From a virus, in IMG/VR virus record IMGVR_UViG_3300025154_002782, positions 1 through 20,104 of that record: 20,104 nucleotides of DNA, one strand, 5' to 3'. Shown here one piece after another: positions 8,258 through 12,117 of the stretch. The notes beneath the pieces are model-generated. The model worked only from the letters and a program-made list of their open reading frames with translations. It was not told the DNA's origin and did not search any database. Numbering within the stretch: the stretch's first letter is position 1; every line of letters begins with the position of its first letter. The position numbers were made by a program, and so were the translations under genes.

Positions 8258-8433
8258 TGAGCGATGAATTTAAAGACGAACACAGCGGCAAGGGCGGCTC
8301 CTATGTGATTGATGCTGACGGCAAGCGCGTGTTGCAGGAGCGCACTGTGCCCGCCGCCGAACAAAACAAAGCCGCATCGACCATTGCTGGAAAATCCACT
8401 GTGAAGGGAGCAACCAATGCCAAGTCCAACTAA
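8257..8433 (+). CDS. Small hydrophilic protein preceding the tail tube gene
   Basis: This 58-residue gene starts at ATG 8257, overlapping the preceding TGA by one base, and ends at TAA 8431-8433, 17 bases inside the tail tube gene. AAAGGAA lies just before the start. The protein is polar, with GSYVIDADGKRVLQERT at residues 14-30 and a Lys/Ala-rich tail. Similar short proteins with a YV.D..G in the same position occur in lambda-type tail modules, but I know no function. The two-sided overlap and matching codon use make a real gene likely. Confidence 0.75.
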   Translation: MSDEFKDEHSGKGGSYVIDADGKRVLQERTVPAAEQNKAASTIAGKSTVKGATNAKSN

Positions 8434-9358
8434 TGTCCGATTTTGGAAGAAGAAGGCCGTCTTGTTCGGCATGGAAGCCACCTACGCACTCGATCCGGTG
8501 CTGGTTGGTACTGACTGGTTCGAGGCGCGAAATGTGTCGCTGACGCCGTTTGAAGTGGAAAGCGGCGACCGTAATATCGCGATGCCGTGGATGGGGAATA
8601 GCGGCAAGCTGATCGTTGCTATGCGTCAGAAATTGGCGTTCGAGGTGGCACTGGCCGGTAGCGGTGCGCTCGGGACCGTGCCCAAGATCGGCAAGTTGCT
8701 GCGTGCGTGCGGATTCGCCGAGACCATCACTGCCGGCGTCAAGGTAGAGTACACGCTGATCAGCGAGGCATTCGAGTCCGGTGCGTTCTACATCAACATC
8801 GACGGCGTGCTGCACAAAGGTATGGGTGTACGCGGATCGGCATCGATCACGCTGGATGCCAAGGGCGTCCCGCTGCTGAAAGTCGAGATGACTGCGCTCT
8901 ACACCGCGCCGGTGGATGCGGCGCCTCCGGTTGTGGACCGCAGCGGCTGGCCTATCGAGAAAGCGGTCAATGCCGCAAATACCCTGGTGTGCAAGGTAAA
9001 TGCCGTCGATAGCTTCTATTCGAAGTTCGGTGTCAACCTGGCAAGCCAGGTGTCGCACGACATCTACGGCGGCGGCCACGAGCAGATCAAGATCGGAGAT
9101 CGTCAGCCGACCGCCAACCTCACCATACTTGCCGAGCTGCTGGCGACGTTCGACCCGTATGCGCTGGCCACCGCCACGACCAACGTGCCGGTGCAGGTGG
9201 TGCATGGCACTACCGCAGGATCAAAGGTGCAGGTCGATCTCAAGACCAATATAACCGGCGCGAACGAGGTGGACCTGAATGGCTCGGTCGGCTACGACCT
9301 ATCGCTGTCTCCGATACCCGTCACCGGCAACGACGAAGTCAAACTGACTTTCCTGTGA
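8417..9358 (+). CDS. Major tail tube protein (siphovirus type)
   Basis: The 313-residue protein fits the phage tail tube family used by lambda-type and transposable siphoviruses. It opens with RFWKKKAVLFGMEATYALDPV, has the N-terminal beta region with PFEVESGDRNIAMPWMGNSGKL, a central FESGAFYINIDGVLHKGMGVRGSASITLDAKGVPLLKVEM segment and a C-terminal domain ending NEVKLTFL-like (EVKLTFL). It is about twice the size of small Mu tube proteins, and there is no sheath gene nearby, both fitting a non-contractile tail. ATG 8417 has AAGGGAG upstream. Confidence 0.85.
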   Translation: MPSPTNVRFWKKKAVLFGMEATYALDPVLVGTDWFEARNVSLTPFEVESGDRNIAMPWMGNSGKLIVAMRQKLAFEVALAGSGALGTVPKIGKLLRACGFAETITAGVKVEYTLISEAFESGAFYINIDGVLHKGMGVRGSASITLDAKGVPLLKVEMTALYTAPVDAAPPVVDRSGWPIEKAVNAANTLVCKVNAVDSFYSKFGVNLASQVSHDIYGGGHEQIKIGDRQPTANLTILAELLATFDPYALATATTNVPVQVVHGTTAGSKVQVDLKTNITGANEVDLNGSVGYDLSLSPIPVTGNDEVKLTFL

Positions 9359-9365
9359 GAACGAT

Positions 9366-9800
9366 ATGACAGACAAGAAAACCAATCCCATGTTCGTCAT
9401 CGACCAGTCCGGCACCGTCAAGTGGCCGGTGGTCGTGAAGATCCCGACAGACGGCGGCGAGTTCGCCGCATTTCAATTCTCCGGTGTGTTCAAACGCTTG
9501 GCTGAAGATGAATACGACGCGATATTGAACCCGAAGAAGGTAGAGGCGAAGCCAGACGATGTGGTGCTGGTCGATGTCGTGCCGGGCAAGAGTCGCGCCG
9601 ACATCCTCGCCGACAACGCCGTGCTGTTCCCGCAACTGATGGTCGGCTGGGATGGCCCGAAGGATGCCAAGGGCGAATCTGTGCCGTTCAGCGTCGAGAC
9701 GCTTCAACGGCAGATCCAGGGTGTAAACGGACAGCACTTATCCATCGGGCTGTGGCAGGCGATCTTCGAGATCCGCAGCGGGGCCCGCCTGGGAAACTGA
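9366..9800 (+). CDS. G: Tail assembly chaperone, lambda gpG-like (zero-frame product)
   Basis: The 144-residue protein starts at ATG 9366 between the tail tube and the tape measure. It has a beta-rich N-terminus (WPVVVKIPTDGGEFAAFQFSGVFKRL) and a helical C-terminus, the layout of siphovirus tail assembly chaperones that coat the tape measure during tail assembly. Its stop TGA at 9798-9800 follows immediately after a GGGAAAC slippery heptamer at 9791-9797, so a fraction of ribosomes should continue into the T-type frame and make a longer G-T fusion. Confidence 0.85.
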   Translation: MTDKKTNPMFVIDQSGTVKWPVVVKIPTDGGEFAAFQFSGVFKRLAEDEYDAILNPKKVEAKPDDVVLVDVVPGKSRADILADNAVLFPQLMVGWDGPKDAKGESVPFSVETLQRQIQGVNGQHLSIGLWQAIFEIRSGARLGN

Positions 9801-9844
9801 AGGCTGCCGCCAGGCGCTGGGCAACCGGGCGCTTCGGCGGCAGC
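9791..9844 (+). promoter_or_regulatory. Programmed -1 ribosomal frameshift signal (slippery heptamer plus stem-loop)
   Basis: G GGA AAC at 9791-9797 is in the zero frame of gene G in exact X XXY YYZ register. Five bases later GCTGCCGCC (9803-9811) pairs perfectly with GGCGGCAGC (9836-9844). Inside the loop GCGC (9814-9817) can pair with GCGC (9829-9832), TGG with CCG, closing on GCAA (9821-9824). Shifting back one base joins the open frame of the T-type gene. Lambda uses GGGAAAG at the same genomic place. Confidence 0.9.
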
Positions 9845-10147
9845 GACGAGCTGGACGAAGACCTTGCCGCCTTCGGGCTGGCAGACCAGATCAAAGCCGA
9901 CCGGAATGCGCCGTTCGGCATCTGGCCGGAGAACGAGACCGCGGTGCGCACATTCCTTGAACTGGAGGCGCACTGGGTCATCGGCAAGACGGCAGACGGC
10001 ACTTCGCGCCTGGTGCTGGACAACCGGCAGATCAAAGACACGTTGGAGTTGATGGGCGTTAAGCGGCGGGCGTGGCCCGATCTGTTTAACGGCCTGAAAG
10101 TCATGGAAACGGCAGCATTGCTGGAATTGCACGGAGAGACTGAGTGA
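9797..10147 (+). CDS. T-type extension of the tail assembly chaperone (DUF1799), made by -1 frameshift
   Basis: This frame adds 116 residues to G after slippage, giving a G-T fusion of about 260 residues. The sequence includes LKAAARRWATGRFGGSDELDEDLAAFGL, FGIWPENETAVRTFLELEAHWVIGKTADG and RAWPDLFNGLKVMETAALLEL, the pattern of DUF1799 proteins that sit between the G-type gene and the tape measure. A GTG at 9752 could start an independent product but has no ribosome site. In lambda, G-T links the tape measure to the tube subunits. Its stop overlaps the tape measure GTG in a GTGA. Confidence 0.88.
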   Translation: MKAAARRWATGRFGGSDELDEDLAAFGLADQIKADRNAPFGIWPENETAVRTFLELEAHWVIGKTADGTSRLVLDNRQIKDTLELMGVKRRAWPDLFNGLKVMETAALLELHGETE

Positions 10148-12117
10148 GCGAGCTGACCTTTGGAATGCGCCTGACCTATGACGGCAAGTCTGCAAATGCC
10201 GACATGGAGGAAACGCGCGCCAGGATGGAGCGCCTGACCAGCACTGGCGGCAAGATGGCGACGCAGTACTCGTACATCGATTCGGCGATGCGCAAGCACG
10301 TCGAGACCAACGTGCAGACCGCTTCCAGCGTCAACAAGCTGCTCGACCGCTACGATCCGCTGGGCGCGAAGTTGCGCCAGCTGCAGGAAGACTTCAAGAA
10401 ACTGGACTCGGCCGCAGCGGGCGGGCAGATCGGCACGGGCAGCGATGCGCGGGTCGACCAGGCGTATGCCGCCATGCAGCAGCAGATGGTGATGCTGAAG
10501 AACGGCACCACAGCATCCTCTACTTCAATGTCTTCTCTCGGCCTCAACACGCAGTATGCCCGGCGCGAGCTGATGCAGCTTGGCAAGGAAGCGCTGACGG
10601 GCGACTTCTCCCAAATGCCGCGCACCTTTGCTACGTTGGCTACCCACTCCAATATCCTGCCTGCGCTGATCTCTCCAATCGGACTGGCGATCGCCGGTGT
10701 GACCGCTGCAGCAGTGGCCGGTGGTGCGGCTTGGTACTACTGGGGACATGAGGCGGAGAGTGCCGCCGACAGAGCGATCACTGCTTCAAAGAGAGCAACT
10801 GAAGATATGCGTGCCTCAGACGCGGTGTATCTGTTGAACCGCGAACGCGAACAGATCGCAAAGAAGATCCCGGTTCAGTGGCTTTCCTACGACGAAAAAG
10901 ACCTGAAGAAGCTGGACGATGACTCACAGAAGCTCATTGCAGAATACCGGCGTCTCAGCAAGGAACTGAAGCAGGAGACTGCGCGGAGCGACGCATCTTG
11001 GGACTCGTTGCATTCAACCCCGCAAGAAAAGCACACCTCTGAATTGCAAAATCTAAAACAGCGTTTTGAAGAGCAAAAGGTAATCCATAAGAGCAACCAG
11101 CAAGAACTTTTAGCACTTGAAAAACAATATCAACAGAAGAAAGCCGAGATCGAAAAACAGTATTCCAAGAAAGCCAACGCCGACCAAGACAAAGGCGACT
11201 CCATCGTCAACGGCCTGATCGCCGACTACGACCGCGAAATTGCCAAGCGTCAGCGCGATATCCAATCGCCGCTGTTGTCTGCTGCGGACAAGCAGCACGC
11301 CGACAACCTTGCCCTGGTCGGCGAAAAAGCAGACCGCGCCCGCGAGAGCCTGGACAAACTGAATCTCAGCAAGGAAGAAGCAAAGTCCAAGACGGCGCAG
11401 ATCAATGCCGGCGAAAGAGATGCGATCGCCGCGATGGAAGCATTGCGCATGCAAGTCGAGAAGAACAACGCCAGTTGGGAATACGGCGCTGCCATCGCCA
11501 TGCGCAAGTACCAGGACGAAGCCGCCAACACTGCCGCACTGAGCGAGCGGTTCTTCACTTCATCGTTCAAGAGCATGGAGGCGCAGGAGGTCAGCTTTAT
11601 CCGCAAGGGTAAGGCCGACTGGCGCAGCTTCGGCGACACCATCATCAACGAGCTGGTCCGCATTCAGGTGGCCAAGGCGAATGCGCAGCTCATCGGCACT
11701 GTTGCTGGCTGGTTCAGTGGTGGTTCTGGCTCTGGGGCAACATCCACCGGCAGCGACTGGAACCCGGATTATTCCTTGGGATCTGCCACCCCGCGCGCCA
11801 GCGGCGGCCCTGTGGCTGCAAACAGTCTGTACCGAGTGAATGAGATGGGGCCCGAGCTGTTCCACCAAGACGGCAGCGACTACCTGATGATGGGTGGGCG
11901 TGGTGGCTACGTCAAACCGCTTGGTTCTGAGGTTGGCGTGAACGGCGGCGGCAACGTCTTCTCCATCCAGGTGAACGTCGACGCCAAGAGCGGCGATACG
12001 CAGACACAGTCGAACAACGACGCCCTTGCCAAGCTTGGAAACAGGATTGCCACCGTGTCGCGTAGCGTGATCCTGGAAGAGATGCGTCCGGGCGGTTTGC
12101 TGGCGAGGGCTGCCTGA
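10144..12117 (+). CDS. H: Tail tape measure protein, lambda gpH family
   Basis: The 657-residue protein starts with GTG at 10144. Residues about 1-170 are helical, about 171-200 form a hydrophobic segment (ILPALISPIGLAIAGVTAAA then VAGGAAWYYW), about 205-435 are long charged helices, and about 439-520 show the lambda tape-measure C-terminal pattern, with YGAAIAMRKYQDEAANTAALSERF and SFGDTIINELVRIQVAKANAQL. The end has a Gly-rich PRASGGPVAANSLYRVNEMGPELF motif. It sets tail length and helps DNA entry; at about 0.15 nm per residue it implies a tail near 100 nm. Residues about 300-340 lie in an unusually AT-rich patch. Confidence 0.92.
   Translation: MSELTFGMRLTYDGKSANADMEETRARMERLTSTGGKMATQYSYIDSAMRKHVETNVQTASSVNKLLDRYDPLGAKLRQLQEDFKKLDSAAAGGQIGTGSDARVDQAYAAMQQQMVMLKNGTTASSTSMSSLGLNTQYARRELMQLGKEALTGDFSQMPRTFATLATHSNILPALISPIGLAIAGVTAAAVAGGAAWYYWGHEAESAADRAITASKRATEDMRASDAVYLLNREREQIAKKIPVQWLSYDEKDLKKLDDDSQKLIAEYRRLSKELKQETARSDASWDSLHSTPQEKHTSELQNLKQRFEEQKVIHKSNQQELLALEKQYQQKKAEIEKQYSKKANADQDKGDSIVNGLIADYDREIAKRQRDIQSPLLSAADKQHADNLALVGEKADRARESLDKLNLSKEEAKSKTAQINAGERDAIAAMEALRMQVEKNNASWEYGAAIAMRKYQDEAANTAALSERFFTSSFKSMEAQEVSFIRKGKADWRSFGDTIINELVRIQVAKANAQLIGTVAGWFSGGSGSGATSTGSDWNPDYSLGSATPRASGGPVAANSLYRVNEMGPELFHQDGSDYLMMGGRGGYVKPLGSEVGVNGGGNVFSIQVNVDAKSGDTQTQSNNDALAKLGNRIATVSRSVILEEMRPGGLLARAA

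Follow-up and report, generated by a model that had tools for sequence, protein, structure and literature searches.

The window, by which we mean the whole stretch of 20,104 nucleotides that was analyzed, carries a Mu-like siphoviral prophage, whose head genes resemble those of Mu (gpT, gp36) and whose long-tail genes are lambda-like (tail terminator, tube, tape measure and minor tail). At the locus under study the genes follow each other in the order tube, chaperone ORF, DUF1799 and tape measure, which is the placement of G and G-T (Table 1). The second ORF (9752-10147) runs in the -1 frame relative to the first (9366-9800), and this -1 frame is open from position 9512, across the junction between the two. 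Rfam and tRNA searches over the window returned no match.

Table 1. Coordinates of the genes and signals at the chaperone locus of the window
Feature	Position	Strand	Evidence or remark
Tail tube protein (Phage_tube_2), upstream gene	8417..9358	+	Pfam PF18906, E 9.5e-10
Zero-frame ORF, 144 aa, predicted tail assembly (tape measure) chaperone, G-like by role	9366..9800	+	ORF, PHROG 569
GGGG, weak Shine-Dalgarno-like stretch, doubtful in the window	9780..9783	+	7 nt 5' of the heptamer
Slippery heptamer G_GGA_AAC (GGGAAAC)	9791..9797	+	Sequence, register, conserved position
Zero-frame stop TGA abutting the heptamer	9798..9800	+	Sequence; abutting stop in 106/118 homologous sites
-1-frame extension, 116 codons + TGA, DUF1799 domain	9797..10147	+	PF08809, E 4.6e-12; alignment
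Outer 9-bp stem, 5' arm GCTGCCGCC	9803..9811	+	Perfect pairing, RNAfold, relatives
Inner helix and loop (9812-9818 with 9828-9834), not conserved	9812..9834	+	RNAfold, relatives
Outer 9-bp stem, 3' arm GGCGGCAGC	9836..9844	+	Perfect pairing, RNAfold, relatives
Tape measure protein, downstream gene	10144..12117	+	Tape_meas_lam_C, E 2.6e-16

The zero-frame product matches PHROG 569 (tail) with an E-value of 2.7e-7. The AlphaFold model of this 144-aa protein (pLDDT 80) resembles, among BFVD folds, Gp15 of Edwardsiella phage eiAU (E-value 2.6e-5) and the 'tape measure chaperone' of Serratia phage Scapp (E-value 8e-4), and no solved structure in the PDB resembles it. From these matches, which lean in part on a predicted fold, we infer that the product is a chaperone of the tail or tape measure. 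The second domain is DUF1799 (PF08809), which it matches with 46.4 bits versus a curated cut-off of 26. PF06223 (Phage_tail_T, the lambda T family) was discarded as its family, and this family was not found in the window's own genome. The second gene had been called 'T-type' in the preliminary description, a term that holds for its role and position but not for its family. PHROGs 569 and 680, which correspond to the two chaperone parts (9366-10147), are both labelled 'tail length tape measure protein', a misleading name that chaperones bear in many phage records.

At the end of the first ORF, the codon AAC (9795-9797) directly precedes the TGA, with a gap of 0 nt. The heptamer is therefore in register and abuts the stop, rather than standing three bases before it as originally worded. 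GGGAAAC alone is common, since it occurs five times in the window versus 1.9 times expected, and its meaning comes from the in-frame position right before the stop and from its conservation in relatives. The Shine-Dalgarno-like GGGG was rejected as a stimulator in the window, because it does no better than its own synonymous shuffles: the duplex with the anti-Shine-Dalgarno sequence (approximately -5 kcal/mol, at -16 to -12) is equalled by 45% of them. Across the DUF1799 family, such pairing peaks 7-15 nt 5' of the heptamer, with a small excess over synonymous shuffles (p 0.006), much of which follows from the protein sequence.

Downstream of the heptamer, the five-base spacer (9798-9802, which includes the stop) and the perfect 9-bp stem lie exactly where they had been placed. 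The inner stem, which had been described as closing on GCAA, ends in a CAA triloop in the minimum free energy structure. RNAfold gives the 53-nt stretch -36.6 kcal/mol, with a z-score of -5.4 versus dinucleotide shuffles, and the z-score is only -0.84 when the hairpin is folded within a 91-nt stretch. Because the region is both GC-rich and coding, the fairest test is the comparison with synonymous shuffles that preserve the -1-frame protein. This comparison returns a z-score of -4.5, ahead of every other site among 92 homologous ones. At the level of the family, the 51 nt that follow the CTN codon have a mean z-score of -1.12 versus synonymous shuffles, whereas a control stretch 90 nt downstream folds less well (mean z-score -0.44, Mann-Whitney 5e-4, 92 sites). 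The first paired base lies 3-8 nt 3' of the heptamer in 87 of these 92 sites.

The signal is conserved in close relatives. The preliminary description had proposed to look for the heptamer and for compensatory changes in them, and seven relatives from IMG/VR cover the site, with 58-89% identity in the DUF1799 domain. All seven have the heptamer, an abutting stop (TGA or TAA) and a stem of 9-10 bp starting 5 nt downstream. The outer 9 bp of the hairpin are kept in the relatives and the inner helix is not. As for compensatory changes, a single two-sided one is present, from T9805-A9842 to G-C, whose second change turns Ser into Arg. Four distinct sequences are too few to give it statistical power, and we consequently take the covariation as consistent with a selected stem and do not count it as proof. 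Two further searches added little: genome contigs returned no relative for the window's own DUF1799 domain, and viral contigs returned one for the first-frame protein.

To place the site in a broader context, we drew DUF1799 loci from whole genomes, IMG/VR, GTDB genomes and named phages, dereplicated them at 80% identity into 124 clusters, and counted a heptamer when it lay at most 60 nt from the upstream stop. A heptamer in register is present in 118 of the 124 clusters (AAAAAAC in 76, GGGAAAC in 40 and AAAAAAG in 2), and 116 of these 118 follow the pattern RRRAAAC. In 106 of the 118 clusters no base separates the heptamer from the stop of the upstream ORF (TGA in 64, TAA in 31, TAG in 11), and in the remaining 12 this stop lies 3-54 nt 3' of the heptamer. 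A second prophage-like DUF1799 locus of the window's genome (L026; G000:C43, ~17553) has AAAAAAC followed by TAG, so both heptamer types are found within one host. At another locus (L051, ~1498-1531) AAAAAAC-TAG is kept, yet a short way further on an in-frame TAG interrupts the -1 frame; this is probably a decaying prophage.

Taken together, frame, heptamer, hairpin and conservation support the earlier proposal of a -1 frameshift that fuses a second domain onto a tail chaperone, aided by a stimulatory hairpin. We consider it very probable (approximately 0.92), judging from sequence features, that the site is a -1 programmed frameshift of the kind known from tail assembly chaperones, which would produce a chaperone of 144 aa and a fusion of 260 aa (144 + 116), a length in agreement with the 'about 260' residues predicted before. 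Counting against this reading are the poor performance of the heptamer in E. coli, the single compensatory change, the absence of a PDB match and a few homologues that have no heptamer. Most ribosomes would read GGA-AAC and terminate at the abutting TGA to release the short form. A minority, aided by the hairpin 5 nt downstream, would slip by -1 on G_GGA_AAC and continue with CTG-AAG-GCT through DUF1799. If lambda is a guide, coating of the tape measure protein may fall to the short form and recruitment of the tube protein to the long one. At the predicted junction of the fusion, trypsin would release LGNLK, which is too short for specificity, and Glu-C would give ..IRSGARLGNLKAAARRWATGRFGGSDE.

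Two other explanations for the pair of frames are each very improbable. The DUF1799 gene might use its own start, GTG at 9752, and form no fusion: an ORF with this GTG exists, and the codon is kept in close relatives. However, no evident ribosome-binding site lies upstream of it, the GTG is a by-product of conserved Leu-Trp codons (CTG-TGG) in the upstream frame, and initiation there leaves the conserved heptamer unexplained. Moreover, 63 of 92 homologues have no ATG, GTG or TTG ahead of the heptamer in the second frame, and 40 of the 92 remain startless even through the first 20 codons past it, which bears out the earlier advice to give the second gene no separate start. Equally hard to sustain is an origin in transcriptional slippage, or in a frame break due to mutation or sequencing error. 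Runs of six or seven A do occur in the AAAAAAC members, but GGGAAAC lacks them, and across the family the two heptamer forms are found at one and the same position, while a mutation or an error would not account for two frames and a signal preserved over a very diverse set. Finally, reinitiation on a CTG that overlaps the TGA (CTGA) was rejected as a rule of the family, as 28 of 92 sites have CTA.

The frameshift reading leaves the position of the stop to be explained. On the sequences surveyed, the stop-abutting architecture is a trait of the DUF1799 family. In control loci with PF06223, the lambda-T type, the stop abuts in 1 of 13 cases and lies 3-60 nt downstream, mostly 18-60, in the other 12. 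Among P2-type controls (PF06528) it abuts in none of 8 and lies approximately 27-36 nt downstream in 6 of 8, measured from the likely motif. For the chaperones of SEA-PHAGES, PRFect reports a mean of 26 nt (PMC10885494). Many of the PF06223 loci (L059-L072) also use AAAAAAC, mostly followed by CTCC and at a distance of 18-60 nt from the stop; the weak Asn heptamer is not confined to DUF1799 but widespread among phage chaperones.

In 83 of 90 cases among the first 92 sites, the Leu codon read after the slip creates a stop in the upstream frame; of the Leu codons at other positions of these ORFs, 142 of 899 do so (Fisher p ~1e-50, a value that overstates the difference because the rows are related). 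On a tree of the 92 fusions, the site switches state (between TGA, TAA, TAG and no stop) 27 times or more, yet only 9 rows are without an abutting stop. Hence, as far as these alignments tell, the stop is probably retained by selection rather than through shared ancestry alone.

What the stop is selected for can be read in two ways. We see roughly even odds that it acts outside the shift mechanism, either by fixing the C-terminus of the short form (..KN or ..GN) or by sparing the hairpin from zero-frame ribosomes. This reading gains from the homologues that have no heptamer, namely Escherichia phage AHP24 (L246, ~692-704), Klebsiella phage GH-K3 (L248) and Sin4 (L253), to which a further locus, L054, is similar. 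The site of the three phages is GCA-AAG-GTC-TAA or GCA-AAA-GTT-TAA, which suggests that their ribosomes would slip on a tetramer (A_AAG or A_AAA) one codon upstream. Their stop is at the unchanged aligned place, and a stop that stays where it is while the slip motif moves weakens the idea of an obligatory stop in the A site. Against a role outside the mechanism, chaperones of the lambda-T and P2 types tolerate stops farther downstream, and there is no sign that a longer short form does harm.

A more tentative alternative, to which we give clearly less weight, is that RRRAAAC, the abutting stop, the hairpin and often a Shine-Dalgarno-like stretch would act jointly, with the slip occurring while the stop is in the A site and in competition with release factors. 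In E. coli, frameshifting at the HIV heptamer falls when a stop follows it, a stop that is titrated by RF2 (PMC4373837). The reduction favours a stop that is external to the shift; it also implies that the codon after the heptamer can occupy the A site at the slip, in which case an abutting stop would hold the shift back and couple it to termination. If termination coupling were true, the ratio of short to long chaperone would depend on termination, and the DUF1799 tail chaperones would carry bacterial -1 frameshift signals of a separate class.

The rate of slippage is expected to be low, at a few percent. All 64 heptamers have been measured in E. coli, whose tRNAs and ribosomes may differ from those of the window's host, and both G_GGA_AAC and A_AAA_AAC are of low efficiency there, which is ascribed to poorly tolerated re-pairing from AAC to AAA; the motifs are used in IS elements (PMC4066793). 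The 'high-efficiency' slippage claimed at first is therefore unsupported. Nevertheless, lambda needs only about one long chaperone per thirty short ones (PMC5009743), so a weak site may be adequate. In practice, the locus of the window should be annotated as one frameshifted gene. More generally, a stop directly follows a heptamer that is a poor slip site for E. coli ribosomes, and this combination is kept in many phages of Proteobacteria, among them T1-like coliphages that can be grown on laboratory E. coli. The DUF1799 sites are natural signals for measuring the competition between -1 slippage and termination in bacteria, and could show which ribosomal site holds the post-heptamer codon at the slip. 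A family-wide description of stop-abutting DUF1799 sites was not found in the literature searched, a search that lay outside Xu et al. 2004 and 2013.

The closest known arrangement is that of lambda G and G-T, reportedly the subject of studies by Levin (1993) and Xu (2004, 2013). As in the window, the lambda genes lie between tube and tape measure. In lambda a -1 shift on a GGGAAAN heptamer takes place near the end of the first frame and a short and a long chaperone are made, as predicted for the window; both are absent from finished virions of lambda (PMC5009743). Lambda differs in its heptamer, GGGAAAG, which is efficient in E. coli and a much better motif than GGGAAAC, and in its second domain, PF06223 instead of DUF1799, a family in which the stops are mostly distant rather than abutting. 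Closer by family are the gp40/gp39 tape measure chaperones of T1-like phages (Drexlerviridae; Stevie, U136B, Sin4, Rtp), which belong to DUF1799 and for which several records annotate the frameshift product (PMC4319613). Stevie, U136B, Rtp and tonnikala have AAAAAAC with an abutting TAA, unlike the GGGAAAC of the window, and the T1-like phages are lytic enterobacterial phages rather than prophages. In Acinetobacter phage vB_AbaS_Loki (gp12/gp13), AAAAAAC has been described as immediately adjacent to the stop (PMC5313236), a remark on one phage that we liken to the window by the arrangement of the site and not by assignment to DUF1799. Certain signals read by eukaryotic ribosomes also combine a heptamer, an immediate zero-frame stop and an RNA structure, but their genes and structures are unrelated. 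The frameshift sites of IS1 and IS3 transposases share hairpin and Shine-Dalgarno-like stimulators and differ in genes and purpose (PMC4066793). The arrangement of lambda G/G-T and the annotated frameshift of T1-like phages were thus already known, and the window adds to them a further ordinary member with an unusually strong hairpin.
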